Source: Skermanella mucosa
GTDB lineage: Bacteria > Pseudomonadota > Alphaproteobacteria > Azospirillales > Azospirillaceae
DNA length: 64,000 bases
Assembly: GCF_016765655.2 (NCBI RefSeq)
Contig: NZ_CP086107.1
Coordinates: forward strand, 434,001-498,000
Reading direction: 5' to 3'
Part shown: positions 18,115 through 45,747 of the stretch, one piece after another
How the letters are laid out: every line of letters starts with the position of its first letter
Numbering within the stretch: the stretch's first letter is position 1
The notes under the pieces: model-generated
Databases searched by the model: none
Told to the model about the DNA's origin: nothing
What the model saw: the letters and a program-made list of their open reading frames with translations, nothing else
Made by a program: the position numbers and the translations under genes

Positions 18115-19479
<1,365 letters not shown>

Positions 19480-22625: not shown

Positions 22626-22969
22626 CACGGCCTCCTGCTCAGGGGATGCAGTTTCGGAGTGGCAGATAATCCACTCGCCGATCACCTTGTATACGCACCA
22701 GAATGATGAGCGTATTATCTGTCGCCGCGGCGGGCCTTGTGGCTCGGGTCAGGTCGTTATGTCGCTCGGAAGCAACGACTTGACACGATCCCCGACATCG
22801 CCCCTCCGACCTCTCATCGATTTTGCCGTCACGCACCGTAGATCGCGTCAATCCGGCACCTATGCTGGTCTTCCGTCTTCCGTGCGGGTGTCTTCCGTGT
22901 GGGGCCGGAAGGGGGTCCCGGATTGCGCAATGTTTTGTCGGCTGCTGCGGTAAGGCTATGCAGCTTTCC
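22626..22969. other. Intergenic region, no gene
   Basis: About 340 bases between the SLC13 gene and the DUF1275 gene. Open frames here have no coding character. It must hold the promoter of the DUF1275-thioesterase pair; no clear promoter or terminator could be assigned. Confidence 0.4.
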
Positions 22970-28022: not shown

Positions 28023-29030
28023 TCAATGGTAGCCGGTCTCTCCGGTCACCTTGCCCCGGAAGACCCAGTAGCTGAACGCGGTGTAGGCCAGGATGGTCGG
28101 GATCAGGAACATCATGCCGATCAGCAGGAAGACCTGACTCTCCGGCGGCGAGGAGGCGTCCCAGATCGTGATGTGCGGCGGCACCACATAGGGCCAGACG
28201 CTGACGGCCAGCCCGACAAAGGACACCAGGAACAGCGCCATGGACCAGACGAAGGGCTGTACCTCCAGCCGCTCGGTCACTGAACGCCAGAGCATGTAGG
28301 TAATGCCGGCCGTGATCAGCGGAACGGGCGACAGGAACACGATGTTGGGCCAGGAAAACCAGCGGGCGGCGATTCCTTCATGGTTCAGCGGCGTCCAGAT
28401 GCTGACCAGCAGGATGAAACCGAGCACGACGATCAGCAGGGTCTTGGCGAGATGGTAGGCCCAGTTCTGCAGCGACCCTTCCGAGCGCCAGATCAGCCAG
28501 GTGCAGCCCAGCAGGGCATAGCCGGCAACCAGCGCTATCCCGCACACCACCGCGAACGGCGTCAGCCAATCGAACATGCCGCCGGCGAAGTCCCGGCCCT
28601 CGACCTGAAAGCCCTGGATGAAGGCACCGAGGGCGGCGCCCTGGACGAAGGTCGCGACCAGGGAACCGACGTTGAAGGCGATGTTCCACAGGAAGCGGCT
28701 CTTGTTGGCCTTGAAGCGGAACTCGAAGGCGACACCGCGGAAGATCAGCGCGATCAGCATCGCCAGCAGCGGCAGGTAAAGCGCCGGCAGCACGATCGCG
28801 TAGGCCAGCGGAAATGCCGCGAACAGCCCGGCCCCACCCAGCACCAGCCAGGTCTCGTTGAAGTCCCAGATCGGCGCCACCGAGTTCATCATGATGTCGC
28901 GATCCCGGTCGCTGGGCGCGAAGGGGAACAGAATGCCAAGCCCGAGATCGAAGCCGTCCCTCAGCACGTACATGAACACCGCGAAGCCGACGATGCCGGT
29001 CCAGATCAGAGTCAGTTGGGTTTCGACCAT
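28023..29030 (-). CDS. cydB: Cytochrome bd (CIO-type) ubiquinol oxidase subunit II
   Basis: 335 residues, about nine membrane segments, beginning MVETQLTLIWTGIVGFAVFM with YVLRDGFDLGLGIL, the CydB signature. Other family parts: SVAPIWDFNETWLVLGGAGL, RGVAFEFRFKANKSRFLWN and VWPYVVPPHITIWDAS. With CydA it forms a high-affinity quinol oxidase that does not pump protons. It lies 6 bases after the separated C-terminal piece of cydA. Confidence 0.95.
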   Translation of the reverse strand: MVETQLTLIWTGIVGFAVFMYVLRDGFDLGLGILFPFAPSDRDRDIMMNSVAPIWDFNETWLVLGGAGLFAAFPLAYAIVLPALYLPLLAMLIALIFRGVAFEFRFKANKSRFLWNIAFNVGSLVATFVQGAALGAFIQGFQVEGRDFAGGMFDWLTPFAVVCGIALVAGYALLGCTWLIWRSEGSLQNWAYHLAKTLLIVVLGFILLVSIWTPLNHEGIAARWFSWPNIVFLSPVPLITAGITYMLWRSVTERLEVQPFVWSMALFLVSFVGLAVSVWPYVVPPHITIWDASSPPESQVFLLIGMMFLIPTILAYTAFSYWVFRGKVTGETGYH

Positions 29031-29036: not shown

Positions 29037-29228
29037 TCACTCCGCCGGTTCGATACGTTCGTCGGGCAGCGAGAGCGGCCGCTTGGGGCGGCCGGCCTCG
29101 CTCCTGGCCTGGAAGGCGTCCTCGTGCGGCGAATGGACGGGGCCGAGCTTGAGCAGCCGGAAGATGTAGTAGGTGCCCGCGGTGAAGATCATCGCGTAGA
29201 CCACGATGAAGGTCACCAGCGAGGTCAT
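29037..29228 (-). CDS. Detached C-terminal segment of CydA (out of frame)
   Basis: 63 residues: MTSLVTFIVVYAMIFTAGTY followed by YIFRLLKLGP and a polar tail. The hydrophobic helix and RLLKLGP-like end match the last membrane segment normally fused to CydA. The ORF begins at an ATGA overlap with the cydA stop, in the -1 frame. One extra G in the G6 run at 29234-29239 would fuse both ORFs into a protein of about 470 residues, the usual CydA length. Alternatively it is translated separately as a small subunit by coupling. Confidence 0.8.
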   Translation of the reverse strand: MTSLVTFIVVYAMIFTAGTYYIFRLLKLGPVHSPHEDAFQARSEAGRPKRPLSLPDERIEPAE

Positions 29229-30442
29229 GGCAGCCCCCCGGTCAGCGCCGGAGTGACGCTGTCGGCGGTGCGCAGCAGACCGTAGACCGTGAAGGGCTGA
29301 CGTCCGACCTCGGTGGTGAACCAGCCGGCCAGCAAGGCGACGAACCCGACCGGCGTCAGCGCCATGCAGACCGCGAGGAACCCGCGGTCCTCATCGAGCC
29401 GGCGCTTGCGGCGGAGCCACAGGCTGTAGAGGCCGACACCCAGCATGACGAATCCCAGACCCACCATCAGGCGGAAGGTCCAGAACACGATTGGCACATA
29501 GGGCCGGTCGGCCGGCGGGACATCCTTCAGGCCGGGGACCTTGCCCTCCAGCTCGTGGGTCAGGATCAGGCTGGAAAGGTAGGGGATGGCGATCTCGTAG
29601 TGGTTCTCCTCGGCTTCCATGTCTGGCAGGCCGAACAGGATCAGGGGTGCGCGCGGCCCTCCTTTCCAGTGCCCCTCCATCGCGGCCACCTTGGTCGGCT
29701 GGTGGTGCAATGTGTTGAGGCCGTGCAGGTCGCCGAGCAGGATCTGGAGCGGCGCCAGGGCCGAGATCAGCCCGATCGCCATGGAGAAGGAAATTTTCGA
29801 GTGCTCGGGGAAACGCCCTTTGAGCAGGTACCACGCGCTGATGCCGGCGACCACGAAGGAGGTCGTCAGGAACGACGCGGTGACCATGTGCATCAGGCGG
29901 AAGGGGAACGACGGGTTGAAGATGATGGCCGCCCAGTCCGTCGGGAAGAACCGCCCGTCGCGGATCTCGAAGCCGGCCGGCGTGTGCATCCAGCTGTTGG
30001 CGGAAAGGATCCAGAAGGACGAGATCAGCGTGCCGAGCGCCACCATGGAGGCGGCAAAGAAATGCATGCCGCGCGGAACGCGGTCGCGCCCGAACAGCAG
30101 GATGCCGAGAAAAGCCGCCTCGAGGAAGAAGGCGGTGACGACCTCGTACTGGATCAGCGGTCCCAGGACATAGCCGATGATGTCCGACCAGCGGCTCCAG
30201 TTGGTGCCGAACTGGTAGGACATGACGATCCCGGAAACGACGCCCATGCCGAAGGAGATGGCGAAGATCTTGGTCCAGAACCCGGAAAGCTTGAAGTAGG
30301 CCTCCCGCCCGGTCGCAAGGTACAAGCCTTCCAGAACGACGATCCAGTTGGCGAGGCCGATCGTGAAGGCCGGAAAAAGAATGTGGAAGGAGACAATGAA
30401 CGCGAACTGGATACGGGATAGGAAGAGTGGATCATACTCCAT
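29225..30442 (-). CDS. cydA: Cytochrome bd (CIO-type) ubiquinol oxidase subunit I, frameshifted near its end
   Basis: 405 residues. Landmarks: the heme b595 ligand His in the N-terminal FIVSFHILFPAFTIG; GMGVVSGIVMSYQFGTNW; Met/His heme b558 ligands around FPFRLMHMVTAS; the GLNTLHHQPTKVAAMEGHW segment; and TEVGRQPFTVYGLLRTADSV. The Q-loop is short, as in cyanide-insensitive oxidases. The frame stops at LTGGLP in a run of six G, about 60 residues early, and the final helix follows in another frame. GGAGGGGACC precedes the ATG. It serves as terminal oxidase for quinol generated by the type II NADH dehydrogenase encoded nearby. Confidence 0.93.
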   Translation of the reverse strand: MEYDPLFLSRIQFAFIVSFHILFPAFTIGLANWIVVLEGLYLATGREAYFKLSGFWTKIFAISFGMGVVSGIVMSYQFGTNWSRWSDIIGYVLGPLIQYEVVTAFFLEAAFLGILLFGRDRVPRGMHFFAASMVALGTLISSFWILSANSWMHTPAGFEIRDGRFFPTDWAAIIFNPSFPFRLMHMVTASFLTTSFVVAGISAWYLLKGRFPEHSKISFSMAIGLISALAPLQILLGDLHGLNTLHHQPTKVAAMEGHWKGGPRAPLILFGLPDMEAEENHYEIAIPYLSSLILTHELEGKVPGLKDVPPADRPYVPIVFWTFRLMVGLGFVMLGVGLYSLWLRRKRRLDEDRGFLAVCMALTPVGFVALLAGWFTTEVGRQPFTVYGLLRTADSVTPALTGGLP

Positions 30443-30548: not shown

Positions 30549-31271
30549 TCAGTACATGTGCTGGCCGCCGTTGATCGACAGGGTGGCGCCGGTGACGAAG
30601 CCGCCCTCGTCGGCCACCAGGAACAGGGTGCCGCGGGCGATCTCCGACGCCTTGCCGAGCCGGCCGACCGGCACCTTGGCGACGATCTTCTCCAGCACGT
30701 TCGGGGGAACGGCGCGCACCATGTCGGTGTCGATGTAGCCGGGTGCGATTGCGTTGACGGTGATCCCCTTGGCCGCACCCTCCTGGGCCAGCGCCTTGGT
30801 GAATCCGTGGATGCCCGACTTGGCCGCCGCGTAGTTGACCTGGCCGTACTGGCCGGCCTGGCCGTTGATCGAGCCGATGTTGACGATGCGGCCGAAGCCG
30901 CGCTCGCGCATGCCGTCGATCACGTTCCGGCACATGTTGAAGCAGGAGGTCAGGTTCGTCTGAATGACGTCGTTCCACTGCTCATAGCTCATGCGGTGAA
31001 GAACGCCGTCGCGGGTGATGCCGGCGTTGTTGACGACGATGTCCACGGGACCCAGTTCCGACGCGACCTTCGCGAGGCCTTCCTTGCAGGCATCATAGCT
31101 GCTGACGTCCCACTTGAAGACCGCGATGCCGGTACGCTCGGAGAACTCACGGGCCTTTTCGTCGTTGCCGGCGTAGATCGCGGCGACAGTGTATCCGGCG
31201 TCCTTCAAGCCGACCGAGATGGCCTCTCCGATGCCGCGCGTACCGCCGGTAACAACTGCGACTCTTGGCAT
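30549..31271 (-). CDS. phaB: Acetoacetyl-CoA reductase PhaB
   Basis: 240 residues, short-chain dehydrogenase fold. The NADP-binding motif TGGTRGIG is at residues 8-15, NNAGITRDGVLHRM follows, and the catalytic Ser/Tyr/Lys are in IVNIGSINGQAGQYGQVNYA AAKSG; the ending FVTGATLSINGGQHMY is typical of PhaB. It reduces acetoacetyl-CoA to (R)-3-hydroxybutyryl-CoA with NADPH, the direct precursor for PhaC. The start at 31271 is preferred because GAGAGGACA precedes it. It lies 34 bases after phaA. Confidence 0.96.
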   Translation of the reverse strand: MPRVAVVTGGTRGIGEAISVGLKDAGYTVAAIYAGNDEKAREFSERTGIAVFKWDVSSYDACKEGLAKVASELGPVDIVVNNAGITRDGVLHRMSYEQWNDVIQTNLTSCFNMCRNVIDGMRERGFGRIVNIGSINGQAGQYGQVNYAAAKSGIHGFTKALAQEGAAKGITVNAIAPGYIDTDMVRAVPPNVLEKIVAKVPVGRLGKASEIARGTLFLVADEGGFVTGATLSINGGQHMY

Positions 31272-31305
31272 TGTCCTCTCCCTTATGCGGATTGTTTCTT
31301 CACGT

Positions 31306-32481
31306 TCAGTCACGGGCGACGGTAAGAGCGATGCCCATGCCGCCGCCGATGCACAGGGTGGCGAGCCCCTTCTTGGCGTCGCGCTTCTGCATCTCGTGCA
31401 GCAGGGTGATCAGGACGCGGGCTCCCGAGGCGCCAATCGGATGCCCGAGTGCTATGGCGCCGCCGTTAACGTTCACCTTCGCCGGATCCCAACCCATGTC
31501 CTTGTTGACCGCGCAGGCCTGGGCGGCGAACGCCTCGTTCGCCTCGATCAGGTCCAGATCGTCTACCGACCAGCCGGCTTTCTTGAGTGCCAGGCGGCTG
31601 GCCGGGATCGGTCCGGAACCCATCACCGCGGGATCGACGCCGGCGGTCGCCCAGGACACGATGCGCGCCAGCGGCGTGATGCCGCGTTTCGCGGCGGCGT
31701 CCGCCCCCATCAGCACCAGGGCCGAAGCTCCGTCGTTGATGCCCGACGCGTTGCCCGCGGTCACCGTTCCTTCCTTGGAAAAAGCCGGCCGGAGTTTGGC
31801 CAACGCTTCCACGGTGACGCCGGGCTTGGGAAACTCGTCGGTATCGACGACGGTATCACCCTTGCGGGTCTTGATGGTAAGCGGAACGATTTCGTCCTTG
31901 AACCTGCCGGCCTTGATGGCGGCTTCTGCCTTGTTCTGCGATGCCGTTGCGAACTCGTCTTGCTGATCACGGGTGATCTGCCATTTCTGGGCCACGTTCT
32001 CGGCGGTGGTGCCCATGTGATAGCCGTTGAAGGCATCCCACAACCCGTCGCGGATCATGGTATCGATCAGCTGGGTGTCGCCCATCTTAGTGCCGCCCCG
32101 CAGATGCATGCAGTGGGGCGCCTGACTCATGCTTTCCTGGCCGCCGGCGACGACGATCTCGGCGTCGCCCGTCCGGATCGCCTGGAAGCCGAGCGCCACC
32201 GTGCGCAGGCCGGACCCGCACAGCTGGTTGATGCTGTAGGCGGTCTTTTCGACCGGAATGCCGGCGTTGACGGCCGCCTGGCGGGCGGGATTTTGCCCGG
32301 TTCCCGCCGTCAGCACCTGCCCCAGCACGACCTCCGAGACCTCATCCGGCTCGACGCCGGCGCGCCTCAACGCTTCCCGGATTGCCACCTCGCCCAGATA
32401 GTGGGCTGGCACCGTGCCCAGCGAGCCGTTGAATGCGCCGGTCGGGGTGCGGGCGGCTGAGGCTATAACAACTTCAGTCAT
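31306..32481 (-). CDS. phaA: Acetyl-CoA C-acetyltransferase (beta-ketothiolase) PhaA
   Basis: 391 residues, thiolase family. The acylated Cys88 lies in [16 protein letters not shown]; the C-terminal catalytic His and Cys are in [20 protein letters not shown] and [12 protein letters not shown]. It condenses two acetyl-CoA to acetoacetyl-CoA, the first step of PHB synthesis. The start [19 protein letters not shown] is at 32481. Its position upstream of phaB in the same direction supports the biosynthetic role over fatty-acid oxidation. Confidence 0.96.
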
Positions 32482-32575
32482 GCGTTTCCTCCGCTTCAAA
32501 ATTATGAACTTGCCTGATCCAGGCTTAGGTTCTCAGTTTTCCCGTGAGATCGAGACGGGCTTGTCGATGGGCCTG

Positions 32576-34015
32576 TCAGTGCAACTTCACGCTCGGTTCC
32601 GTGCGATGCGTAAGGCTTCGGGAGAGCGTTTCCAGCGCGACCCTTGCGGATCCGTGAAGGGCCATGAGGTGCATCTTGTAGAGCGACATGTACATGATGC
32701 GGGCGAAGTACCCTTCGATCATCATGTTGCCGCCGACCAGCTTGCCCATCAGGTTGCCCACCGTCGAGTACTCGCCCAGCGACACCAGGGATCCGAAGTC
32801 TCGGTAGACGAAGGGTTGTAGCGGCTTGCCTTCCAGCCGGCGGCGCAGCTGCTTCAGCAGGTGCGACGCCTGCTGATGAGCTGCCTGGGCGCGGGGCGGA
32901 ACCGGCGCCTTATGCCCCTCGCGCGGACACGACGCGCAGTCCCCCATGGCGAAGATGTCGGGGTCGCGGGTGGTCTGGAGTGTCGGTGTCACGATCAGCT
33001 GGTTGTTACGGGTGACCTCGAGCCCGTCCAGCTCACGGAGAAACTCGGGGCCCTTCACACCCGCCGCCCACACCACCAGCTCGGCGGGAATGAAGCCGCC
33101 ATCAGCCAGGGAGACGCCATCCCGGCGCACCTCGGTGACCTTTGCTCCGGTTCGCAGATCGACGCCGAGATCGGTCAGCAACTTGGCAGTGGCTTTCGAA
33201 ATGCGCTCAGGCAGCGCCGGCAGGATCCGCTCGGCACCCTCGATCAGGGTGATGCGGAAGTCCTTCTCGGGGTCGATCCGGTCGAGGCCAAAGGCGGCGA
33301 TCTGGCGGGTCGTGCGATGCAGTTGCGCCGCCAGTTCGGTGCCGGTGGCGCCGGCTCCAATGATCGCGACGTGGAGCTGCCCCGACCGCACCGGCTCGGG
33401 TTGAGCGTGGGCCCGGATGCAGGCGTTGACCAGACGCTTGTTGAAGCGTTCCGCCTGGCGCAGCGTATCCAGCGGGATCGCGAACTCCTTAACACCCGGC
33501 GTTCCGAAGTCGTTGCTGGTGCTGCCCACCGCCATCACCAGCGTGTCGTACCGGAACGACCGCGCCGGGGTGATCTCGTTGCCCTCGTCGTCGTAAGTGG
33601 GGGCCAGGCAGACCTCGCGCTTGCTCCGGTCCAGTCCGATCATCTCGCCGTAGCGGTAGCGGAAATGATGCCAGTGTGCCTGAGCCAGATAGTCAAGCGC
33701 GTGATTGTCCACATTCATGCTGCCGGCCGCCACCTCGTGCAGCAGCGGCTTCCAGAGGTGGGTGCGCGAACGCTCGATCAGCGTGATGCTAGCCCGATTG
33801 CGCTTGCCCAGCTTGTCTCCCAGCCCGGTCGCCAGTTCCAGGCCGGCGGCGCCCCCGCCGACGACCACGATGTGGTGCAGCATATCATTCCGGGGCTTGA
33901 CGCCGGAGCGGGGCTCCGTCGCCTCCGGCGCACCAGCTCGCTCAAGGGTTTCCGTCAGGCCGGATGTCTGCCGTGACGTAATTGTCGTGTCATCAGCCGC
34001 TGCCTTGTCTGCCAT
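32576..34015 (-). CDS. Type II NADH dehydrogenase (NDH-2-like flavoprotein)
   Basis: 479 residues from the ATG at 34015 (GGGGAG upstream). After a polar leader of about 45 residues come the FAD-binding HIVVVGGGAAGLELATGLG and the NAD-binding HVAIIGAGATGTELAAQLH Rossmann motifs, then DIFAMGDCASCP. The C-terminal VYRDFGSLVSLGEYSTVGNL and MYMSLYKMHLMALHG form the membrane-anchoring helices of NDH-2. It oxidises NADH and reduces quinone at the inner membrane without proton pumping. With cytochrome bd this would give a fast, poorly coupled NADH outlet beside the pyruvate dehydrogenase genes. Confidence 0.9.
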   Translation of the reverse strand: MADKAAADDTTITSRQTSGLTETLERAGAPEATEPRSGVKPRNDMLHHIVVVGGGAAGLELATGLGDKLGKRNRASITLIERSRTHLWKPLLHEVAAGSMNVDNHALDYLAQAHWHHFRYRYGEMIGLDRSKREVCLAPTYDDEGNEITPARSFRYDTLVMAVGSTSNDFGTPGVKEFAIPLDTLRQAERFNKRLVNACIRAHAQPEPVRSGQLHVAIIGAGATGTELAAQLHRTTRQIAAFGLDRIDPEKDFRITLIEGAERILPALPERISKATAKLLTDLGVDLRTGAKVTEVRRDGVSLADGGFIPAELVVWAAGVKGPEFLRELDGLEVTRNNQLIVTPTLQTTRDPDIFAMGDCASCPREGHKAPVPPRAQAAHQQASHLLKQLRRRLEGKPLQPFVYRDFGSLVSLGEYSTVGNLMGKLVGGNMMIEGYFARIMYMSLYKMHLMALHGSARVALETLSRSLTHRTEPSVKLH

Positions 34016-34065
34016 GGCCCGGCACTCCCCGCTGTTTTCGTCATGCGCTACCCTGCCCCGCTCCC

Positions 34066-34101
34066 GCACCACCGGATGCCTGCATCCATATCCGGTGGTG
34101 C
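34066..34101 (-). terminator. Perfect 12-bp hairpin between dctA and the NDH-2 gene
   Basis: GCACCACCGGAT (34066-34077) pairs with ATCCGGTGGTGC (34090-34101) around a 12-base loop that itself contains a small inverted repeat (GGATGC/GCATCC). It begins 14 bases after the dctA stop (minus strand). There is no T-run; it could be a terminator or an mRNA-stabilising end. Confidence 0.65.
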
Positions 34102-34114
34102 TGGAACCGGGGGA

Positions 34115-35515
34115 TCAGGCCCGTACCGGCGAAGGAGCCCCTGCCGTTCCTCTCCCTGTGCCGATCCCGACGCTTTCCTCCTCTTCGACCAGGACGCTCT
34201 CTGGGCTGTCGGCCTCGGCATCGGTCTCGTTGTTGAGGTGCCGGTGCATGCGCTCGGTGTCGAGCGCTCCCTCCCATTTCGCGACCACGATGGTGGCGAC
34301 ACCGTTGCCGATCAGGTTGGTCAGGGCTCTCGCTTCCGACATGAAGCGGTCGATGCCCAGGATCAGCGCGATGCTGGCGACCGGAATGGTGCCGACCGAG
34401 GCCAGCGTTGCCGCCAGCACGATGAAGCCGCTGCCGGTGACGCCGGCCGCCCCCTTGGAGGTCAGCAGCAGCACGCCGATGATGCCCAGCTGCTGCGCCA
34501 TCGTCAGGTCCGTGTTGGTCGCCTGGGCCAGGAAGATCGCGGCCATCGTCAGGTAGATGCAGGTGCCATCCAGGTTGAACGAGTAGCCGGTCGGGATCAC
34601 CAGCCCCACCACGGACTTGTCCGCCCCAAGCAGCTCCATCTTGGCGATCATGCGCGGCAGGACTGATTCAGAGGAGGATGTGCCGAGGACGATCAGCAGC
34701 TCCTCCTTGATGTACTTGATGAACTTCAGGATGCTGAAGCCGGCCAGACGGGCGACCCCGCCCAGCACCAGGAAGACGAAGATCAGGCAGGTGGCGTAGA
34801 AGGCAATCATCATTGAGCCGAGCGAGACCAGGCTGCCCACGCCGTACTTGCCGATGGTGAAGGCCATGGCGCCGAAGGCACCGATCGGGGCCACCTTCAT
34901 CACGATGCCGACGATCTTGAAGAAGACGTGGGCCGACTGGTCGATGATGCCCAGCAATGGCTTGCCGCGCTCACCCAGCGCGAACAGGGCGAAACCGAAC
35001 AGCAATGCAAAGAACAGCACCTGAAGGATCTCACCCTCGGCGAAGGCGCCGACCACCGTGCTCGGCACGATGTGCATGATGTACTCGATGGTGCCCTGCT
35101 CGGCCGCTTTCGAGGTATAGGCCGCGATCGCCTTGGTGTCGAGCGCGCTCACATCGACGTTCATGCCGACGCCGGGCTGCCACAGGTTGACGACGATCAG
35201 CCCGACGATCAGGGCCAGGGTGGTCATGACCTCGAAGTAGATCAGCGCCTTGACGCCGACCCGGCCGACCTTCTTCATGTCCTCCATGCTGGCGATGCCG
35301 TGCACCACGGTGCAGAAGATGATCGGGGCGATCAGCATCTTGATCAGCTTGATGAACAGGTCGCCCAGCCACTTCAGGCTCTCGCCGAACTGGGGATAGA
35401 AGTATCCGACCAGCACGCCGAGAACGATGGCGCACAGGACCTGGAAGTAAAGATGATGGTAGATCTTCTTGTGTGGCGCCGTTGCGGCCGAGGCCGCGCC
35501 TCCGGTGACTTCCAT
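34115..35515 (-). CDS. dctA: C4-dicarboxylate:cation symporter DctA
   Basis: 466 residues of the glutamate/dicarboxylate symporter family. Typical are [20 protein letters not shown], the serine-rich re-entrant loop [18 protein letters not shown], and [20 protein letters not shown] plus [20 protein letters not shown]. The C-terminal tail is long, acidic then Gly-rich. It imports succinate, fumarate and malate with protons or sodium. It lies 13 bases after maeB with GGGAGAGAACG before the ATG, so it is co-transcribed with the malic enzyme rather than standing alone opposite dctBD as in rhizobia. Confidence 0.96.
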
Positions 35516-35528
35516 AGCGTTCTCTCCC

Positions 35529-37829
35529 CTACTCGGCGGCTTTGGCCATAGGCACTTCGCCCAGTTCCACAGCCGCATCCACGGCTGTCAGGGCGGTCAT
35601 GTTGACGATGCGGCGGACGGTGCTGGTCGGGGTCAGGATGTGAACCGGCTGGGCCGCGCCCAGCAGGATCGGCCCGACCGTGACGCCCTGCCCGGCCACC
35701 GCCTTCAGGGCGTTGAAGGTGATGTTGGCGGCATCCAAGTTGGGCATGATCAGCAGGTTGGCCTCGCAGGTGAGGGTGCTGTCCGGCATGATCCGGTCCA
35801 GCGTGTGTTTGGCAAGAGCCGCATCGGCGTGCATCTCGCCATCCACCTCCAGGTCCGGAGCCATTCCCTGGATCAGTCCCAGGGCCTGGCGCATCTTGAT
35901 CGCCGAGGGCGTGTCGGCGCTGCCGAAGTTGGAGTGCGACAGCAGGGCGGCGCGTGGCGTCAGGCCGAATCGTTGGACCTCCTTCGCCGCCAGCAGCGTG
36001 AACTCGGCGATCTGCTCGGCCGTCGGATCAGGATTGATCGAGGTGTCGCAGATGAACAGAGTATGCCCCGGCAGCATCAGCAGGTTCATGGCGGCGAAGT
36101 TTCGGGTGCCCTCCTGCAGGCCGATAACATCGGCGACATATCCCAGGTGTGTGGCATAGGGGCCGGAGGTGCCGCACAGCAGTCCATCGGCCTTGCCCTG
36201 TCGCACCAGCGCCGCCCCGATCAGCGTCGAGTTCCGCCGCATCTCCGCGACCGCGAAGTTGCTGGTGAGACCACGGCGGCGGCGAAGCTGATAGTAAAGT
36301 TCCGCCGCCTCATTGATCATGGCGTCATCGTCGAAGTCGGCGACGTCGTAGTCCTTGCCCGCTTGAATATGCAGGCCCAGCTCACGCATTTTCTGCTCGA
36401 TTACGTGGGTTCTGCCGACCAGGATCGGGCGCGCCAGGTTCTCATCGACTACCACCTGGGCCGCCCGCAGCACCCGATCGTCCTCGCCTTCCGCGTAGCA
36501 GACGCGCTTTCTGAGCTCCGCCGCGGCGGCGAACACTGGCTGCATGACCGTGCCGGAGCGGTAGACGAAGCCGCCGAGCTGGTCGCGGTAGGCCTTCATG
36601 TCGGTGATCGGCCGGGTGGCGACGCCGGTCTTCATGGCCGCTTCCGCCACCGCCGGAGCCACCGTCGTGATCAGCCGCGGGTCGAACGGACGCGGGATCA
36701 GGTATTCCGGGCCGAACGGCTCCTGAGTGCCGTAGGCCGAGGTCACCACGTCGGACGGCTCGGCTTCCGCGATGGCGGCGATCGCCAGCGTGGCCGCCAT
36801 CTTCATTTCCTCGTTGATGGTGCTGGCGCCGACATCCAACGCCCCCCGGAAGATGAAGGGGAAGCACAGGACGTTGTTGACCTGGTTGGGATAGTCCGAC
36901 CGCCCGGTGGCGATCACGCAGTCCGGCCTGACCTCCCTTGCCAGTTCGGGACGGATCTCCGGTTCCGGGTTCGCCATCGCCAGGATCAGCGGCTTGTCTG
37001 CCATGCCCTTGACCATCTCGGGCTTCAGCACGCCGCCAGCCGACAAGCCTAGGAAGATGTCGGCGTCAGGCATGATGTCGGCCAGCGTTCTGGCCTGGGT
37101 CGGCTGCCCGTAACGCGCCTTGTTGTCGTCCATGTACTCGGTGCGTCCTTCGTAGACCACACCCTTGCTATCGGTGACGAAGACGCTCTCCTTGCGGAGT
37201 CCCAGATTGATCAGCAGGTCGAGGCAGGCGAGTGCCGCGGCACCGGCACCGGAGCAGACCAGCTTGACGTCCTCGATCTTTTTCCCGACGACCTTCAGGC
37301 CGTTGATGACGGCCGCCGCCGTGACGATGGCGGTGCCGTGCTGGTCATCGTGGAAGACCGGGATTTTCATGCGTTCGCGCAGCTTGGTCTCGATGTAGAA
37401 GCATTCCGGCGACTTGATGTCTTCCAGGTTGATGCCGCCGAAGGTCGGCTCCAGGCTGGCGATGATCTCGACCAGCTTCTCGGGATCTGTCTCGTCGATC
37501 TCGATGTCGAACACGTCGATCCCGGCGAACTTCTTGAACAGGCAACCCTTGCCTTCCATGACCGGCTTGCTGGCGAGCGCGCCGATGTTGCCCAGGCCCA
37601 GCACCGCGGTCCCGTTGCTGATCACCGCCACCAGGTTGCCGCGCGAGGTCAGGTTCAGCGCCTCCAGCGGGTCCTTGTTGATCGACATGCAGGGGATCGC
37701 GACGCCCGGAGAATAGGCCAGCGCCAGATCGCGCTGGTTGACCATGCTCTTGGTCGGAGTGATCGAGATCTTACCTGGATTGGGAAAACGGTGATAGTTC
37801 AGGGCGCTTTGGACCAGATGTTCGTCCAT
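35529..37829 (-). CDS. maeB: NADP-type malic enzyme with phosphotransacetylase-like C-terminal domain
   Basis: 766 residues, the usual length of bacterial MaeB. The malic N-terminal domain contains [15 protein letters not shown] and [38 protein letters not shown] binds the metal; the NADP fold has [19 protein letters not shown]. Residues from about 430 form the PTA-like domain ([30 protein letters not shown]), usually regulatory in this family, for example by acetyl-CoA. It converts malate to pyruvate, CO2 and NADPH in the cytoplasm. Placed between dctA and the pyruvate dehydrogenase genes, it links dicarboxylate uptake to acetyl-CoA supply. Confidence 0.95.
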
Positions 37830-37900: not shown

Positions 37901-39976
37901 TCACTTTCGCTTGGGCATGTAGAGGTCGGTGATGGTGCCCTCGAAGGCTTCGGCTGACATGGCGATGGTTTCGGAGAGTGTCGGGTGCGGGTGGATGGTC
38001 AGGCCGATGTCCTCGGCATCGGCTCCCATCTCGATCGCGAGTGCGGCTTCCGCGATCAGGTCGCCGGCGCTGGGACCGACGATGCCGCAGCCGAGGATGC
38101 GGTCGGTCGCCTCGTCGAACAGGATCTTGGTGATCCCCTCGTCGCGCCCCAGTGACAGCGACCGGCCGCTCGCGGCCCACGGGAAGACCCCCTTGCCGTA
38201 CTTTACGCCCTTGGCCTTCAGCTCGTTCTCGGTCGGTCCCACCCAGGCGACTTCCGGATCGGTATAGGCGACCGACGGGATCACCTTGGCGTCGAAGAAG
38301 CTGTTCTTGCCCGACGCGGCCTCGGCTGCCACCCTGCCCTCATGGACCGCCTTGTGCGCCAGCATCGGCTGACCGACGACGTCGCCGATCGCGAAGATAT
38401 GGGCCACGTTGGTCCGCATCTGCTTGTCCACCGGGATGTAGCCGCGCTCGTCCACGGCAACCCCGGCATTCTCCGCCCCGATCGTGCGCCCGTTCGGTCG
38501 CCGGCCCACAGCAACCAGGATGCGATCGAAAATGTCGGTCGCTGGCGCCTTGCCGCCTTCGAAATATGCTATCAGACCATCCGCCGTCGCCTCGACCTTG
38601 GTCACCTTGGTCTTCAGGTGGATGTTCTCGTACTTCTTCTGGATCCGCTTCATCAGCGGCGTCACGATGTCCTTGTCGGCGCCGGGGATGATCTGGTCCA
38701 TCAACTCGACTATGGTCACCTTGGATCCCAGCGCGTGATAGACCGTCGCCATCTCCAGCCCGATGATGCCGCCGCCCAGCACCAGCAGCCGCTTCGGGAT
38801 CCCGTCCAGTTCCAGCGCCCCGGTGCTGTCGATCACCCGCGGGTCCTGGTGCGGGATGAACGGCAGCGTCACCGGCTCCGACCCCGCGGCGATGATCGCC
38901 TGGTCGAAGGTCACAACTTTCCTTGACCCATCCTGCCCCTCCACCTCGACCTGGTTGAGCGAGATGAACCGGCCGAACCCGGAAACAACCGTCACCTTGC
39001 GCTGCTTGGCCAGGCCGGACAGGCCGCCGGTCAGCTTCTTGACGACACCGTCCTTCCAGCCGCGGAGCGCATCGATGTCGATGGTGGGATCGGTGAAGCG
39101 GATGCCGTGGCCGGACATGTCCTGGGTCTCGTCGATCACCTTGGCCGCGTGCAGCAGGGCTTTCGACGGGATGCAGCCGACATTCAGGCAGACACCGCCC
39201 AGCGTCGGCCAACGTTCGATCAGCACGACCTGCTTGCCGAGATCAGCCGCCCGGAAGGCGGCGGTGTAACCGCCGGGGCCGGCCCCCAGCACCAACACCT
39301 CGGCATGGATGTCACTCGCCACGGCGCTGGCCGGTTTGCCCGCCGGAGCACTGGCTGGAGCTGGCGGCGCCATGGTTATCGCAGCACCGTTGCCCTTGGC
39401 GGCTGCCTGGGTCCGGAGCGTCATGATGGTGTCGCCCTGGGACACCCGGTCGCCCACCTTGATCCTGATCGCGCCGACGGTGCCCGCCGCGGGCGCCGGG
39501 ATCTCCATCGTGGCTTTGTCGGATTCCAGCGTCATCAGGGGGTCTTCGGCGCCGATCTCGTCACCTTCCCTGACCAGGATCTCGATGACCGGCACGTCCT
39601 TGAAGTCACCGATATCGGGAACCTTGACCTCGATCGTGTCGTAGGTTCCCGCCGGCGAGCCGTAACCGGCCTGCGCATAGCCGGCCGAGGGGGCAGCGTC
39701 TTCCCTCAGGCGTTCCTTGGGCGGAATGGCAGCCCCACCCTCGGCTTCGAGCATGAGGATCAGGTCGCCCTCCGAGACGCGGTCGCCGGTCTTGACCTTG
39801 ACCTCGCCGACGGTGCCGGCCTGCGGGCACGGCACCTCCAGCGTCGCTTTGTCGGACTCCAGCGTCAGCAGCGGGTCTTCCACCGCCACCTTGTCGCCGG
39901 TCTTCACGTGGACCTCGATGATCGGCACCTCCTTAAAGTCGCCGATATCAGGGATGCGGATTTCCATCGTGCTCAT
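37901..39976 (-). CDS. lpdA: Dihydrolipoyl dehydrogenase (E3) with two N-terminal lipoyl domains
   Basis: 691 residues, far longer than a bare E3 of about 470. Two lipoyl domains come first, at about 1-80 and 113-190, each with the lipoylation site (LLTLESDKATLEV; LMTLESDKATMEI). The flavoprotein follows from about 225: FAD motif VLVLGAGPGGYTAAFRAADL, redox disulphide GGVCLNVGCIPSKALLH, NAD motif LLVLGGGIIGLEMATVYH, and the C-terminal His-Glu pair in IHPHPTLSETIAMSAEAFEG. It reoxidises dihydrolipoamide of the pyruvate dehydrogenase complex, forming NADH. One fused lipoyl domain is known in Cupriavidus-type complexes; two are unusual. Confidence 0.95.
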   Translation of the reverse strand: MSTMEIRIPDIGDFKEVPIIEVHVKTGDKVAVEDPLLTLESDKATLEVPCPQAGTVGEVKVKTGDRVSEGDLILMLEAEGGAAIPPKERLREDAAPSAGYAQAGYGSPAGTYDTIEVKVPDIGDFKDVPVIEILVREGDEIGAEDPLMTLESDKATMEIPAPAAGTVGAIRIKVGDRVSQGDTIMTLRTQAAAKGNGAAITMAPPAPASAPAGKPASAVASDIHAEVLVLGAGPGGYTAAFRAADLGKQVVLIERWPTLGGVCLNVGCIPSKALLHAAKVIDETQDMSGHGIRFTDPTIDIDALRGWKDGVVKKLTGGLSGLAKQRKVTVVSGFGRFISLNQVEVEGQDGSRKVVTFDQAIIAAGSEPVTLPFIPHQDPRVIDSTGALELDGIPKRLLVLGGGIIGLEMATVYHALGSKVTIVELMDQIIPGADKDIVTPLMKRIQKKYENIHLKTKVTKVEATADGLIAYFEGGKAPATDIFDRILVAVGRRPNGRTIGAENAGVAVDERGYIPVDKQMRTNVAHIFAIGDVVGQPMLAHKAVHEGRVAAEAASGKNSFFDAKVIPSVAYTDPEVAWVGPTENELKAKGVKYGKGVFPWAASGRSLSLGRDEGITKILFDEATDRILGCGIVGPSAGDLIAEAALAIEMGADAEDIGLTIHPHPTLSETIAMSAEAFEGTITDLYMPKRK

Positions 39977-40023
39977 GGGGCAGCTCTCCAGTCATGTGTT
40001 CGGGACGGCCGTCGGCTAAGCGG

Positions 40024-41352
40024 TCACAGGACCAGCCGGCGGACATCCTCCAGCACGTGGCAGAGATGCCGGGAGAACCGGGCGGCGAGTGCTCCGTCGA
40101 TGACCCGGTGGTCGTAGGACAGCGACACCGGGAGCATCAGCCGGGGCACGAACTCCTTGCCGTTCCACACGGGAGCCATCTTGGACCGCACCACCCCCAG
40201 GATCGCCACCTCCGGCGCGTTGACGATCGGCGTGAAGCCGGTGCCGCCGATGCCGCCCAGGCTCGAAATCGTGAAGCACGCCCCCTGCATGTCGGCGGCA
40301 CTCAGCTTGCCGTCGCGCGCCCGTTTGGAGGCCGAGCCCAGCTCCTGGCTCAGTTCATGGATACCCTTGCGGTCCACGTCCCGGATCACGGGAACCACCA
40401 GCCCTTCCGGAGTGTCGGCGGCGATACCGATGTGGTAGTATTTCTTGACGATCAGGCTGTCCTTCTCCGGCGACAGCGAGCTGTTGAACTCGGGAAACTC
40501 CCGCAGCGCCGAGACGGCCGCCTTCATCAGGAAGGCCAGCAGCGTCACCCGGTAACCCTTCTCCTTCGCGGACGAGTCCAGCTCCTTCCGGTAGGCGTCG
40601 ATCTCCGTGATGTCGGACTCGTCGTTGTGCGTGACGTGCGGCACGTTCAGCCAGGCCCGGTGCAGGTGCGGACCGGACAGCTTCTTGATGCGCGGCAGCG
40701 GCCTGGTCTCGATCGGCCCGAACTTGGAGAAGTCCACCGCCGGGATTTCCGGAATACCGGCTCCTCCCGAGGATCCCGGTGCTGCTGCCGGCGCGGCCGC
40801 CGGTCCTTTGAGGAAGTTCAGCACGTCGTCCTTGGTGATGCGTCCTTTCTCACCGCTGCCCTTCAGCCTGGTCAGATCGACGCCCAGCTCGCGCGCCACC
40901 CGGCGCACGCTGGGGCTCGCATGGACGTTGCCGAAGTCTGCAGTTCCCGTCGTGGCTCCCGCTCCCCGATCGGCGGAGGCCGTTGCCTGGGATGGAGCGG
41001 GGTTCGTGTTCGGCACCGCGACGGGCTTCGACTGCGGCGGCGGCTCCTGCTGATTGACCAGCGACGGCGGTTGGGTCATGGCACCGTCGCCGCCCTTGAA
41101 CATCAGGATCGGCGTGCCCTCGCTGACCTTGTCGCCGACCTTGACCAGGATCTTCTCCACGGTGCCGGAAGATGGTGCAGGCACTTCCATGGTCGCCTTG
41201 TCCGACTCCAGCGTCAGCAAGGGGTCTTCGGCGTTGATCGCGTCGCCTTCCTTGACCAGAATCTCGATGATCGGAACGTCCTTGAAGTCTCCGATGTCGG
41301 GCACGGTCACCTGTGTCGTGACGCCGACACGAGTTTCGGTCATGGCAGTCAT
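40024..41352 (-). CDS. aceF: Pyruvate dehydrogenase E2, dihydrolipoyl acetyltransferase
   Basis: 442 residues. One lipoyl domain (about 10-85, with LLTLESDKATMEVPAP), a Pro/Ala linker, the peripheral-subunit-binding domain (ASPSVRRVARELGVDLTRLK, about 145-180), an Ala/Pro linker and the catalytic domain ending with the active-site SLSYDHRVIDGALAARF. It transfers the acetyl group to CoA and forms the core of the complex. GGAGGAG precedes the ATG at 41352. A single lipoyl domain is the minimum; the E3 partner carries two more. Confidence 0.96.
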   Translation of the reverse strand: MTAMTETRVGVTTQVTVPDIGDFKDVPIIEILVKEGDAINAEDPLLTLESDKATMEVPAPSSGTVEKILVKVGDKVSEGTPILMFKGGDGAMTQPPSLVNQQEPPPQSKPVAVPNTNPAPSQATASADRGAGATTGTADFGNVHASPSVRRVARELGVDLTRLKGSGEKGRITKDDVLNFLKGPAAAPAAAPGSSGGAGIPEIPAVDFSKFGPIETRPLPRIKKLSGPHLHRAWLNVPHVTHNDESDITEIDAYRKELDSSAKEKGYRVTLLAFLMKAAVSALREFPEFNSSLSPEKDSLIVKKYYHIGIAADTPEGLVVPVIRDVDRKGIHELSQELGSASKRARDGKLSAADMQGACFTISSLGGIGGTGFTPIVNAPEVAILGVVRSKMAPVWNGKEFVPRLMLPVSLSYDHRVIDGALAARFSRHLCHVLEDVRRLVL

Positions 41353-41428
41353 CTGTTTTCTCCTCCCTCGTTGCATACGGCGGGTCGTGCCGCCGCATGC
41401 CTATTCATTGCTTGGCGTACCGGCCGGT

Positions 41429-44092
41429 TCAGACGGTCATCGGATTGGGCTTCGACGGATCGAGGCCGTACCTGTTGATGGCGTCGGCCACGACGGAGGC
41501 CTCGACAGCTCCTTCCTCGGCCAGCGACTTGAGTGCAGCAACGGTCACCCAGTGCCGGTCCACCTCGAAGAAATGCCGCAGCTTCTTGCGGTAGTCGGAC
41601 CGGCCGTAACCGTCGGTCCCAAGCACCCGGTAGCGGCCAGGCACCCAGGTGCAGATCTGGTCGGCGAACAGGCGGATATAGTCGGTAGCAGCCACCACCG
41701 GGCCAAGCCGATCGGTCAGGCACGTCTCGACATGGCTCCGGCGCGGCACTTCGGTCGGGTGCAGCAGGTTCCAGCGCTCGACATCGATCGCATCGCGCCG
41801 CAGTTCGGTGAAGCTGGGCACGCTCCAGATATCGGACGCGACGCCCCAATCATTCGCCAGCAGGTCGGCCGCAGCAATCACCTCCCGCAGGATCGTGCCG
41901 CTGCCCAGCAGCTGAACCCGCCTGGCCTCACTCTTGGCTCCCTGGCCCTGGCGGAACAGGTACATGCCCTTGAGGATATCGGCCTCGACACCGTCGGGCA
42001 TGGCCGGGTGCTCGTAGTTCTCGTTCATGACCGTGATGTAGTAGTAGACGTCCTCCTGCTCGGCATACATCCGGCGCAGACCGTCCTGAACGATGACGGC
42101 GACCTCGTACGAGAAGGTCGGGTCGTACGAGACGCAGTTGGGAATTACCGAGGAGAAGATGTGGCTGTGGCCGTCCTCGTGCTGCAAACCTTCCCCGTTC
42201 AGCGTGGTACGCCCGGCAGTGCCGCCGATTAGGAAGCCGCGCGCCCGCATGTCGCCGGCCGCCCAGGCAAGGTCGCCGACCCGCTGGAACCCAAACATCG
42301 AGTAGTAGATGTAGAACGGGATCATCGGCGTGTTGTTGGTGCTGTAGGAGGTCGCCGCCGCGATCCACGACGACATGGCGCCAGGTTCGTTGATGCCCTC
42401 CTGGAGGAGCTGACCGTTCTTGTCCTCGCGGTAGTACATCAGCTGCTTGGCGTCTTCCGGCTGGTAGAGCTGGCCGGTCTGAGAGAAGATGCCGAACTGC
42501 CGGAACATGCCTTCCATGCCGAACGTCCGGCTCTCGTCCGGGACAATCGGGACGATCCGCTTGCCGATCTGCTTGTCTCGTAGCAGCGTGTTGAGGATGC
42601 GCACGAACGCCATCGTAGTGGAAATCTCGCGCCCGTCGGTTGCCTTCAGCTGGGCCTCGAAGGTCGAGAGCGGCGGGATCTCCAGCGATTGCGACCTGAC
42701 CCGGCGCGCCGGCAGGCTGCCGCCGAGTGCCGCCCGGCGCTCGCGCAGGTAGGTCATCTCCGGGCTGTCCTCGGCTAGGCGGAGGAACGGCACCTCCTTG
42801 ATCTGCTCGTCGGTGACCGGCAAGCTGAAGCGGTCGCGGAACTCCTTGAGCACGGCCTCGCCCATCTTCTTCTGCTGGTGGGTGATGTTCTGGCCCTCGC
42901 CGGCCTCGCCCATGCCGTAACCCTTGACGGTCTTGGCCAGGATCACGGTCGGTTGGCCCTTGTGGGCGACTGCCGCGGAATAAGCTGCGTAGACTTTGCT
43001 GGGATCGTGGCCGCCGCGCGTCAGGCTCCAGATCTGCTCGTCCGACATGCCGGCGACACGAGCCTTCAGCTCGGGGTCCTTGCCGAAGAAGTGTTCGCGC
43101 ACATAAGCGCCGTTCTTGGACTTGAAATCCTGGAACTCGCCATCGACGCATTCCTCCATGCGCCGGAGCAGCCGGCCGTCGGTGTCGGCCGCGATCAGCG
43201 GGTCCCACGAGCTGCCCCACAGGACTTTGATGACGTTCCAGCCGGCGCCGCGGAAGTCACCTTCCAGTTCCTGGACGATCTTGCCGTTGCCGCGCACCGG
43301 GCCATCCAGGCGCTGGAGGTTGCAGTTGATCACGAAGACCAGGTTGTCCAGCTTCTCGCGCCCGGCCAGCGAGATCGCACCCAGGCTTTCCGGCTCGTCC
43401 ATCTCGCCGTCGCCCATGAAGGCCCAGACTTTGCGAGGCGCTGTGTCAGCCAGACCGCGATGGTGGAGATATTTCAGGAAGCGGGCCTGGTATATGGCCA
43501 TCAGCGGGCCCAGGCCCATCGACACTGTGGGGAACTGCCAGAAATCCGGCATCAGCCAGGGGTGCGGGTAGGAGGACAGCCCCTGACCATCGACCTCCTG
43601 GCGGAAGTCGAGAAGCTGCTCCTCGGTCAGCCGGCCCTCCAGGAAGGCGCGGGCGTAGATACCGGGTGACGAGTGGCCCTGGATGAAGACCAGATCGCCG
43701 CCGTGCTTCTCGGTCGGTGCGTGCCAGAAATGCTGAAAGCCAGTGTCGTACAGTGTAGCTGCCGATTGGAAGCTGGCGATGTGGCCGCCCAACTCCGAGG
43801 ACTCCTTGTTGGCGCGCAGCACGATGGCCAGCGCGTTCCAGCGGATCAGCGAGCGGATCTTGTGCTCGATCGCGCGGTTGCCCGGATGGCGGGGCTCGCG
43901 GTCAGGCGCTATGGTGTTGAGATAGGGTGTGGTGCCGGAATACGGCACCGGCGTGCCCTTGCGGCGCGCCTCGGTGAACAACTCGTCCAGGAGGAAGTGA
44001 GCCCGGTCCGGACCCTCGAACTCCAGCACGGAAGCAAGAGCTTCGCGCCACTCCTGGGTTTCCAACGGATCATTGTCGCTGATCTTGTTCAT
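41429..44092 (-). CDS. aceE: Pyruvate dehydrogenase E1, homodimeric AceE type
   Basis: 887 residues, the normal AceE length. The thiamine-diphosphate motif is VWAFMGDGEMDEPESLGAIS with NLVFVINCNLQRLDGPVRGN (about 228-270). Other conserved parts are HIASFQSAATLYDTGFQHFW, the His-containing loops VFIQGHSSPGIYARAFLEGR and TVKGYGMGEAGEGQNITHQQ, and GTAGRTTLNGEGLQHEDGHS. It decarboxylates pyruvate and acetylates E2 lipoate. Most alphaproteobacteria use the two-subunit PdhA/PdhB E1 instead, so this gene set resembles beta/gammaproteobacterial clusters. It is the first gene of the run, with a sigma54-like promoter about 100 bases upstream. Confidence 0.97.
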   Translation of the reverse strand: MNKISDNDPLETQEWREALASVLEFEGPDRAHFLLDELFTEARRKGTPVPYSGTTPYLNTIAPDREPRHPGNRAIEHKIRSLIRWNALAIVLRANKESSELGGHIASFQSAATLYDTGFQHFWHAPTEKHGGDLVFIQGHSSPGIYARAFLEGRLTEEQLLDFRQEVDGQGLSSYPHPWLMPDFWQFPTVSMGLGPLMAIYQARFLKYLHHRGLADTAPRKVWAFMGDGEMDEPESLGAISLAGREKLDNLVFVINCNLQRLDGPVRGNGKIVQELEGDFRGAGWNVIKVLWGSSWDPLIAADTDGRLLRRMEECVDGEFQDFKSKNGAYVREHFFGKDPELKARVAGMSDEQIWSLTRGGHDPSKVYAAYSAAVAHKGQPTVILAKTVKGYGMGEAGEGQNITHQQKKMGEAVLKEFRDRFSLPVTDEQIKEVPFLRLAEDSPEMTYLRERRAALGGSLPARRVRSQSLEIPPLSTFEAQLKATDGREISTTMAFVRILNTLLRDKQIGKRIVPIVPDESRTFGMEGMFRQFGIFSQTGQLYQPEDAKQLMYYREDKNGQLLQEGINEPGAMSSWIAAATSYSTNNTPMIPFYIYYSMFGFQRVGDLAWAAGDMRARGFLIGGTAGRTTLNGEGLQHEDGHSHIFSSVIPNCVSYDPTFSYEVAVIVQDGLRRMYAEQEDVYYYITVMNENYEHPAMPDGVEADILKGMYLFRQGQGAKSEARRVQLLGSGTILREVIAAADLLANDWGVASDIWSVPSFTELRRDAIDVERWNLLHPTEVPRRSHVETCLTDRLGPVVAATDYIRLFADQICTWVPGRYRVLGTDGYGRSDYRKKLRHFFEVDRHWVTVAALKSLAEEGAVEASVVADAINRYGLDPSKPNPMTV

Positions 44093-44190
44093 TGATTTCC
44101 TCCCTCGTTATCCCGGCCCCTTCTGGATAGGAGGCCGAAAGCTCTTCTTTATCGAGCACCCGTGAAACAGCGGGTTTGTGCGGGTTTACT

Positions 44191-44206
44191 GGCATGAACC
44201 GTGCCA
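44191..44206 (-). promoter_or_regulatory. Candidate sigma54 (-24/-12) promoter of the aceE run
   Basis: Read on the minus strand: TGGCACG-GTTC-ATGCC, against the consensus TGGCACG-N4-TTGCW. The GG (44205-44204) and GC (44193-44192) pairs have the required 10-base spacing. Transcription would start near 44180 and give a leader of about 90 bases. The site is also the core of a perfect dyad, ACTGGCA-N7-TGCCAGT (44188-44208), so the plus strand also carries a weaker match. Confidence 0.6.
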
Positions 44207-44298
44207 GTCCGCGCCCAACCAGAAAATAATAGCTAAGTTATTAAAGAGGAAGGATCTTTTGATTATTGATAAGCATGCAACAGAGACTTCATTCTGAT

Positions 44299-44332
44299 AT
44301 TCCGCACAAATGGGGCGATTTGCGTCCGGAAT
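44299..44332. promoter_or_regulatory. Imperfect dyad, candidate DctD/enhancer site upstream of aceE
   Basis: ATTCCGCACAAAT (44299-44311) is inverted as ATTTGcgtcCGGAAT (44318-44332) with a two-base offset. The half-site CCGCACA resembles DctD-binding sites described upstream of rhizobial dctA. It lies about 95-125 bases upstream of the -24 element, the usual place for an NtrC-type enhancer. 44209-44298 between it and the promoter is AT-rich without genes, suited to DNA bending. Confidence 0.45.
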
Positions 44333-44460
44333 CTCACACAGCTTGATGGACTTTGGTGCGTAATTTGCGTGGCAGGCGGTCTTCGGTCCTGGTGAGTGTC
44401 GCTCAGGGACGTTGGTGCAGAGATCAGCGGGCGGGCGGACTTCTCCCTTTCCCGCGGTGG

Positions 44461-45249: not shown

Positions 45250-45282
45250 AGGAGCTATAGCGGAATTTGGGTGACGAGGTGT

Positions 45283-45744
45283 TCAGGCGGCGCTGTGTGA
45301 TGTCGGCACGCTGACCTCGATGCCGTCGCGGAATTTGACGCCTTGGATGATCTTGGGCAACTGGTTTTCGCCCTGAAGCCGTCGCCAGGTTCTGGATGCT
45401 GCCGAGATCAGCTTGAAGACCATGAGCTTGGCAGTGTCCTGGGAAAGCGCCCCCTTGGTGCGGACCGTCCGGTGCCGGACCGTGGCGAACACGCTTTCTA
45501 TAGGGTTTGTGGTCCGGACGTGATCCCAATGCTCGGCCGGGAAGCTGTAGAAGGCCAGCAGGGCATCACGATCTTTGGTCAGGCATTCGACGGCCCCGGA
45601 GTACTTAGCGCCGTACTTCTTCCCGAAGGTATCAAGGGCATGCTCCGCCGCCTTGAGGTCGGGCGCCATCCAGATCTCCCGCAGGTCCCGCTTCACCGCG
45701 GGCTGGATGGACTTCGCCACCTTGTTGAGAACATTAGAACTTTT
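45283..45744 (-). pseudogene. IS256-type transposase, C-terminal half
   Basis: The minus-strand frame reads HKSSNVLNKVAKSIQPAVKR through the catalytic Glu region WDHVRTTNPIESVFATVRHR and ends IEVSVPTSHSAA. The N-terminal half is at 47708-48511. The break falls between RCWQ and HKSSN, where the recombinase element has inserted. Confidence 0.9.
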
Positions 45745-45747
45745 ATG

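Follow-up and report, generated by a model that had tools for sequence, protein, structure and literature searches.

Does the dicarboxylate regulator DctD, acting at a sigma54 promoter, switch on pyruvate dehydrogenase? The question is raised by a locus of Skermanella mucosa, contained in a stretch of 64,000 nucleotides that we refer to as the window, in which the pyruvate dehydrogenase genes head a minus-strand run that continues into malic enzyme, a C4-dicarboxylate transporter and enzymes of PHB synthesis. The best-known role of DctD is to switch on dicarboxylate transporters (available part of PMC4676750). Were it to control this run as well, the supply of acetyl-CoA would depend directly on malate or succinate outside the cell rather than on pyruvate-sensing regulators. 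This would bear on how root and nodule bacteria split plant dicarboxylates among respiration, nitrogen fixation and storage, and it would point to a natural dicarboxylate-induced PHB module.

The gene run and the promoter element before aceE

The genes of the locus, listed from aceE downstream, are the following.

41429..44092, minus strand: aceE, homodimeric pyruvate dehydrogenase E1 (TIGR00759, 1520 bits)
40024..41376, minus strand: aceF, dihydrolipoyllysine-residue acetyltransferase, E2 (TIGR01348)
37901..39976, minus strand: lpd, dihydrolipoyl dehydrogenase, E3 (TIGR01350, partial TIGR01348/NF008814); its N-terminal stretch resembles the lipoyl part of E2
35529..37829, minus strand: maeB, NADP malic enzyme carrying a fused phosphotransacetylase-like domain (NF009501, 1174.7 bits, cut-off 1178)
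34115..35578, minus strand: dctA, C4-dicarboxylate transporter (NF002461; longest ORF, start overlapping maeB)
32576..34072, minus strand: ndh-like pyridine nucleotide-disulphide oxidoreductase (below every equivalog cut-off)
31306..32499, minus strand: phaA-type acetyl-CoA acyltransferase, a thiolase (TIGR01930 over cut-off, PhaA equivalog below)
30549..31313, minus strand: phaB-type acetoacetyl-CoA reductase (TIGR01829 over cut-off)
29225..30442, minus strand: cydA-like cytochrome bd oxidase subunit I (PF01654)
28023..29030, minus strand: cydB, cytochrome bd oxidase subunit II (profile match)
25967..27949, minus strand: phaC, class I PHA synthase (TIGR01838)
24807..25781, minus strand: TAXI-type TRAP solute-binding protein
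22970..24583, minus strand: DASS-family sodium-coupled anion symporter
22023..22685, minus strand: DUF1275 protein
19326..21482, minus strand: dctB, sensor kinase with a dCache domain
18115..19479, minus strand: dctD, NtrC-type activator with receiver, AAA+ (GAFTGA) and Fis HTH domains

Upstream of aceE we have located four features.

44323..44340, minus strand: UAS1, DctD-type dyad TGTGTGAGATTCCGGACG (7-4-7), scoring 16.6 with the 15-dctA matrix described below
44291..44308, minus strand: UAS2, DctD-type dyad TGTGCGGAATATCAGAAT (7-4-7), scoring 9.4 with the same matrix
44207..44290, minus strand: spacer between UAS2 and the promoter, by composition 62% A+T and possibly bent
44192..44206, minus strand: sigma54 -24/-12 element TGGCACGGTTCATGC, with exact GG-N10-GC and 10/12 of the consensus, and a counterpart in the sibling genome G003

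An insertion element with a DDE transposase begins at ~44407-44412, ~70 bp above UAS1, so that the DNA from 44093 to ~44406 is native and the promoter element and both dyads lie within it. The region beside the upstream end of the operon, 44407-48550, holds transposase ORFs (DDE and Mutator) and a serine recombinase ORF.

The sigma54 element has a single mismatch to TGGCACG-N4-TTGC, matches 10/12 positions in a 16-base score and reads ATGC instead of the consensus TTGC in its -12 part; its 15 bases stop 100 bp ahead of the aceE ATG (44092), and the minus strand from 44206 to 44190 reads TGGCACGGTTCATGCCA. Sites of at least this quality are rare by chance. In 4,866,328 strand-bases from 115 loci, counted with GG and GC fixed and with the aceE upstream regions excluded, we found 190 sites of ≥10/12, or one per 25.6 kb of strand, so that ~0.016 are expected per 400 bp. 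A looser pattern allowing three mismatches was dropped as uninformative, since it fell below chance in the window (180 found vs 241 expected, no enrichment over the 64 kb). With its exact spacing, its rarity and its retention in the sibling, the sigma54 promoter that had been proposed 100 bp before aceE is very probably real.

Tandem dyads of the DctD type

At rhizobial dctA promoters DctD binds tandem sites. Upstream of the aceE promoter a single imperfect dyad had been described, and its symmetry is genuine, but it is better parsed as two tandem dyads of 18 bp each, 32 bp apart, which occupy the stretch 85-134 bp before the -24 element, counted from its first base, and are centered ~125 and ~93 bp above the element. 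The half-sites CCGCACA and TCCGGAC derive from both of these adjacent dyads, the right half of one having been paired with the left half of the next.

Our main matrix is palindromic, has the consensus tGTGCGgAtaTcCGCACa, and has as its whole training set 15 dctD-adjacent dctA promoters with a ≥10/12 sigma54 site. These come from 19 dctA loci, 14 of them hand-picked from 60 listed matches, after exclusion of L250, L254, L256 and L257, which have no dctD nearby; plasmid DctD matches H1 and H4 supplied dctA promoters for the training. With this matrix UAS1 is the top single site in the 64 kb window and UAS1 plus UAS2, at 26.0, the top pair, the next separate pair scoring 13.5; none of 500 dinucleotide shuffles reached 26.0, and the best of 76 other aceE upstream regions reached 5.6. 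Of 28 aceE-type promoters, which include L075 (no run) and Br_G466 (where the contig ends and a run is not visible), 20 outscore all 76 controls, the promoters being scored over the 200 bp above the sigma54 site, unlike the controls (L-numbered loci without maeB or dctA downstream), for which the region from -300 to -101 of aceE was used. Compared with their own shuffles 24 of the 28 give p≤0.03. The failures are L075, Br_G466, Br_G488, whose dyads are weak (p 0.27), and the Cupriavidus locus L166, which has a 12/12 sigma54 promoter and no dyad match (p 0.83). In the sibling G003 the second dyad is weak (1.4) and the dyad distances equal those of the window.

A second, stricter matrix was built from eight rhizobial dctA promoters only. 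The window pair is again the top pair in the 64 kb (11.0, next separate pair 4.4) and its score was reached by one of 3000 random Markov sequences; the top single site is then at 14902 and not UAS1. Among 12 run promoters scored in this way the window and the Methylobacterium loci L051 and L052 exceed 5, and nine fall below 1. When the spacing was left free (19-79), the best pair lay 31-33 bp apart in 13/15 training dctA promoters, in 12/28 aceE-type promoters and in 7/76 controls. Because of these matrix and spacing results we regard the aceE promoter of the window, on the strength of its sequence, as a good one of the DctD type, of which Bradyrhizobium and Variovorax carry diverged forms.

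A third and weaker DctD-like dyad, TGTGCGGGTTTACTGGCA in the plus-strand reading, lies at 44177-44194 (7.9 with the 15-dctA matrix) and shares bases with the promoter, on its -12 side, and with the predicted start. It may be a chance match or else a repressing site of low affinity.

Conservation in other lineages

The closest comparison is with the sibling Skermanella genome G003, where aceE is 93% identical and TGGCATGGTTCGTGC is found at -112 of aceE vs -114 in the window, the -24/-12 element differing at two of its 15 positions. Genes matching aceE at E≤1e-100 occur in only 4/82 genomes of the family, three of which (the window genome, G003 and Azospirillum G014) have the run, the fourth (G069) carrying an aceE that is 57% identical. 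Because the window type of aceE is so rare in the family we sought other lineages, comparing runs by tblastn of the window proteins. The aceE loci assembled comprise the 80 best among at least 594, together with Bradyrhizobium loci from 195 genomes of a larger group, 36 of which have aceE at E≤1e-100; from these we used every single-piece locus of the 71-77% type (19) and two of the 53-57% type. With such selective sampling the table of 115 loci is not random, and the identity and length cut-offs by which neighbors were named are our own choice.

The genes aceE-aceF-lpd-maeB-dctA-ndh-phaAB recur as runs, in variable order and often together with cydAB and dctBD, in Azospirillum, Bradyrhizobium, Microvirga, Variovorax and Cupriavidus, and in part in Methylobacterium. 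G003 has aceE-aceF-lpd-maeB-dctA-ndh-phaB-phaC, with no dctB or dctD match in the ~36 kb after aceE although the promoter is present, and G014 has phaA-phaB-aceE-aceF-lpd-maeB-dctA-ndh-dctB-dctD. A Variovorax paradoxus plasmid (L165) carries aceE through phaB followed by dctBD, Variovorax boronicumulans (L130) the run as far as dctA, where the locus ends, and a Cupriavidus oxalaticus plasmid (L166) a run that includes phaC, cydAB and dctB. Microvirga plasmids L162-L164 also carry the run, whereas in Methylobacterium L051 and L052 only maeB follows the aceE genes. In the 18 Bradyrhizobium runs dctA and the pha genes mostly precede maeB. All told, the downstream part of the run includes dctB and/or dctD in the window, G014, L165, L166 and, as dctD, in 17/18 of the Bradyrhizobium runs. 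The plasmids with DctD matches H1-H4 have no aceE run, as judged by annotation for H2 and H3 and by tblastn for H1 and H4.

Taking as run loci the 31/115 with maeB or dctA within 20 kb after aceE, a ≥10/12 sigma54 site lies ≤400 bp from aceE in 25/31 of them vs 2/84 of the others (Fisher 1.8e-17, a value to be read with the loci not being independent, 18 of the 25 positives being Bradyrhizobium, and the sample not being random). The two positives without a run are Br_G466, where the contig ends, and L075. Counted by lineage, such a site is present in 6/9 run lineages, Azospirillum being included since the run begins there with phaA and the site lies ahead of that gene; we place no weight on a Fisher test at this level, which assumed 40 lineages lacking the run. 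A comparable -24/-12 element recurs in relatives; none was found near aceE in the three negative lineages, namely Microvirga (L162-L164), a MAG from the betaproteobacteria (L074) and Filomicrobium (L069), in which dctBD is located on the upstream side of aceE.

An exact IHF consensus is present before the run promoters of Variovorax, Cupriavidus and Azospirillum and before the chromosomal dctA, and absent from the upstream region in the window and from G003, Methylobacterium, Bradyrhizobium and S. meliloti. Because of this patchy occurrence we claim no role for IHF.

Two observations concern loci outside this pattern. Microvirga L162-L164 contain at least two repeated units like ATCAGCGYACCCRCGTCT at about -67 to -20 of aceE, perhaps sites of another regulator. 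Among the matches listed, two from Nocardioides (actinobacteria), L062 and L072, have aceE genes 73% and 72% identical to that of the window, so that this type of E1 is spread over distant phyla; mis-binning was dropped as an explanation, since neither is marked as a MAG.

Activators, rival readings and known systems

The assignment of DctBD is based on a dCache kinase adjoining a receiver-AAA+(GAFTGA)-Fis regulator whose recognition helix, PRKTLYD, is close to PRKTFYD of S. meliloti DctD. The dctBD genes (18115-21482) had been described as members of the aceE run. They are indeed on the same strand, but the start of dctB is 22.6 kb downstream of that of aceE, beyond four gaps of 185, 223, 284 and 540 bp between phaC and dctB, the 540 bp gap directly preceding dctB. 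The genome has one copy of rpoN and 17 strong Sigma54_activat domains, two of which belong to DctDs. The second DctD is chromosomal, 77% identical to that of the window and similar in its recognition helix, and its gene sits after a dctA with its own sigma54 site and the exact IHF consensus noted above. In five Skermanella genomes the chromosomal dctA is directly followed by dctD with no room for dctB between them, and a short match to the tail of dctB remains in two of the five (L171:9370-9627, which is G000 C1:1908370-1908627; L273-L276). The chromosomal DctD thus seems to be without a neighboring kinase and may rely on the DctB of the window or on the kinase encoded at C1:49505-51322, which is 40% identical.

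We consider control of the aceE promoter by a protein of the DctD family likely, and control by the DctD of the window plausible, the argument for the latter being linkage. A main activator of other origin, either the chromosomal paralogue or one of the 15 other strong family members, is in our judgment improbable. The number of candidates and the similarity of the two DctDs speak for it, as does G003, which has the promoter and a single DctD (E≤1e-90) of the chromosomal type; on the other hand, four further lineages show linkage of dctBD to the run, and the upstream motif is of the dctA type. Exact-pattern searches upstream of aceE gave neither the NifA motif TGT-N10-ACA nor the NtrC motif TGCAC-N5-7-GTGCA. 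Moreover, activation by the chromosomal paralogue would still amount to DctD-family control.

The -24/-12 element might also be a chance look-alike, with aceE transcribed from a sigma70 promoter and pyruvate control exerted by a PdhR-like or LysR-type factor at TGGCATGAACCGTGCCA, a palindrome at 44190-44206 that encloses the element and whose plus strand itself scores 9/12 as a sigma54 site. We judge this quite improbable, even with the Microvirga runs lacking a sigma54 site near aceE. In the alignment with G003 the palindrome TGGCA-N7-TGCCA is missing, and in Methylobacterium L051/L052 it is not kept either, while both retain -24/-12; the palindrome is therefore unlikely to be a functional site, and its reading as the target of a pyruvate regulator was set aside. 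A scan of 26000-44460 gave three sigma70-like sites vs 2.3 expected by chance, none of them on the minus strand before aceE, and the sigma54 site is associated with the run. That the promoter was once functional and an outward promoter of the insertion element (~44410) now drives aceE is very remote, since, for all the proximity of the element to UAS1, both dyads and the -24/-12 element are in native DNA and the scan to 44460 found no minus-strand sigma70-like site at its end.

The reading that we prefer, and hold to be probably correct, is that transcription of the aceE-led run starts from the sigma54 promoter, with a DctD-family protein at the two tandem dyads as its activator. The DctD control of the pyruvate dehydrogenase run suggested in the preliminary description thus gains support from the conserved element, from the dctBD linkage and from a dctA-trained matrix that picks out the pair. 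The DNA itself shows the promoter element and the tandem motif, how far the two are conserved, and the linkage to dctBD; from these we infer DctD binding, induction by dicarboxylates, a single transcript and possible read-through into dctBD.

As regards the transcript, the gaps from aceE to phaC measure -50 to 194 bp. There are 18 terminator-like sites in 26000-44460 vs 8.9 expected; those on the minus strand are all inside genes, and the plus-strand calls include stems in the gaps phaB-cydA (10 pairs), lpd-maeB, aceE-aceF and cydB-phaC. The perfect-looking, G+C-rich 10-pair stem in the phaB-cydA gap (30499-30524) is possibly an attenuator or terminator within the run. We infer that aceE to phaB form one unit, which may extend to phaC.

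In the mechanism we propose, DctB would sense external C4-dicarboxylate and phosphorylated DctD would bind UAS1 and UAS2, loop across the A+T-rich spacer and open the sigma54 promoter. DctA would then provide uptake, MaeB the conversion of malate to pyruvate, AceEF-Lpd that of pyruvate to acetyl-CoA, the Ndh-like protein disposal of NADH, and PhaA and PhaB the first steps towards PHB, with expression possibly reaching CydAB and PhaC; read-through into dctBD would give positive feedback. The recurrent layouts in other genera suggest one switch for uptake, pyruvate dehydrogenase and carbon storage. More tentatively, and with the case for and against nearly in balance, we propose a transferable, self-amplifying module in which sigma54 and DctBD switch the whole dicarboxylate-to-PHB pathway as a unit, with the sensor at its tail, and which has passed from one to the other of the alpha- and betaproteobacteria, carried at times by megaplasmids of root and nodule bacteria. 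Two findings, the phaB-cydA stem and the low values that the stricter matrix gives for other runs, have lowered our confidence both in this module and in the preferred reading of the promoter.

In the available portions of the literature DctD appears in a list of seven S. meliloti activators and belongs to the three whose targets were known (PMC3616915); its likely targets are transport genes (PMC4676750), and it is listed for dicarboxylate transport (PMC3162934). In S. meliloti and E. coli, induction of the pyruvate dehydrogenase genes is stated to require pyruvate (PMC4268860). The main text of a study of the two RpoN proteins of Bradyrhizobium DOA9 mentions neither aceE nor pyruvate (PMC13207237), and in the accessible part of a Xylella study aceE is named only as repressed under nitrogen starvation (PMC3224663). 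The novelty that had been surmised holds in so far as the open-access literature, without most subscription papers, yielded no earlier report of a DctD- or sigma54-controlled pyruvate dehydrogenase. The aceE-led run would add a new set of targets to a mechanism that is already known.

The nearest known system is the S. meliloti dctA promoter with DctBD, which likewise combines a sigma54 element with two 18-bp dyads of the GTGCGG type; in strain 2011 the starts of TGTGCGGAAATCCGCACA and of a weaker site are 92 and 125 bp, respectively, above the -24 element. There, however, a transporter gene lies beside dctBD, whereas in the window the target is a central-metabolism run with dctBD far downstream. 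AcoR with sigma54 controls acetoin dehydrogenase and so also governs a complex of the 2-oxoacid dehydrogenase type, but the substrate is acetoin and the sensor and sites are unrelated. PdhR is a pyruvate-responsive repressor of a sigma70 promoter and in these respects differs from the system proposed here. Its target within pdhR-aceEF-lpd is nevertheless the same, aceE-aceF-lpd (available part of PMC10572922). In Desulfovibrio vulgaris the DVU2827 and DVU2275 regulons place genes for the conversion of pyruvate to acetyl-CoA under sigma54, and direct control of this kind over pyruvate metabolism genes, by way of pyruvate formate-lyase operons, was called new there; the enzyme is pyruvate formate-lyase, the activators are single-component, and DctD is unnamed in the portion of the paper at hand (PMC4641369). 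As in the window run, the operon linked to DVU2827 also includes C4-dicarboxylate transporter genes (same portion of PMC4641369).
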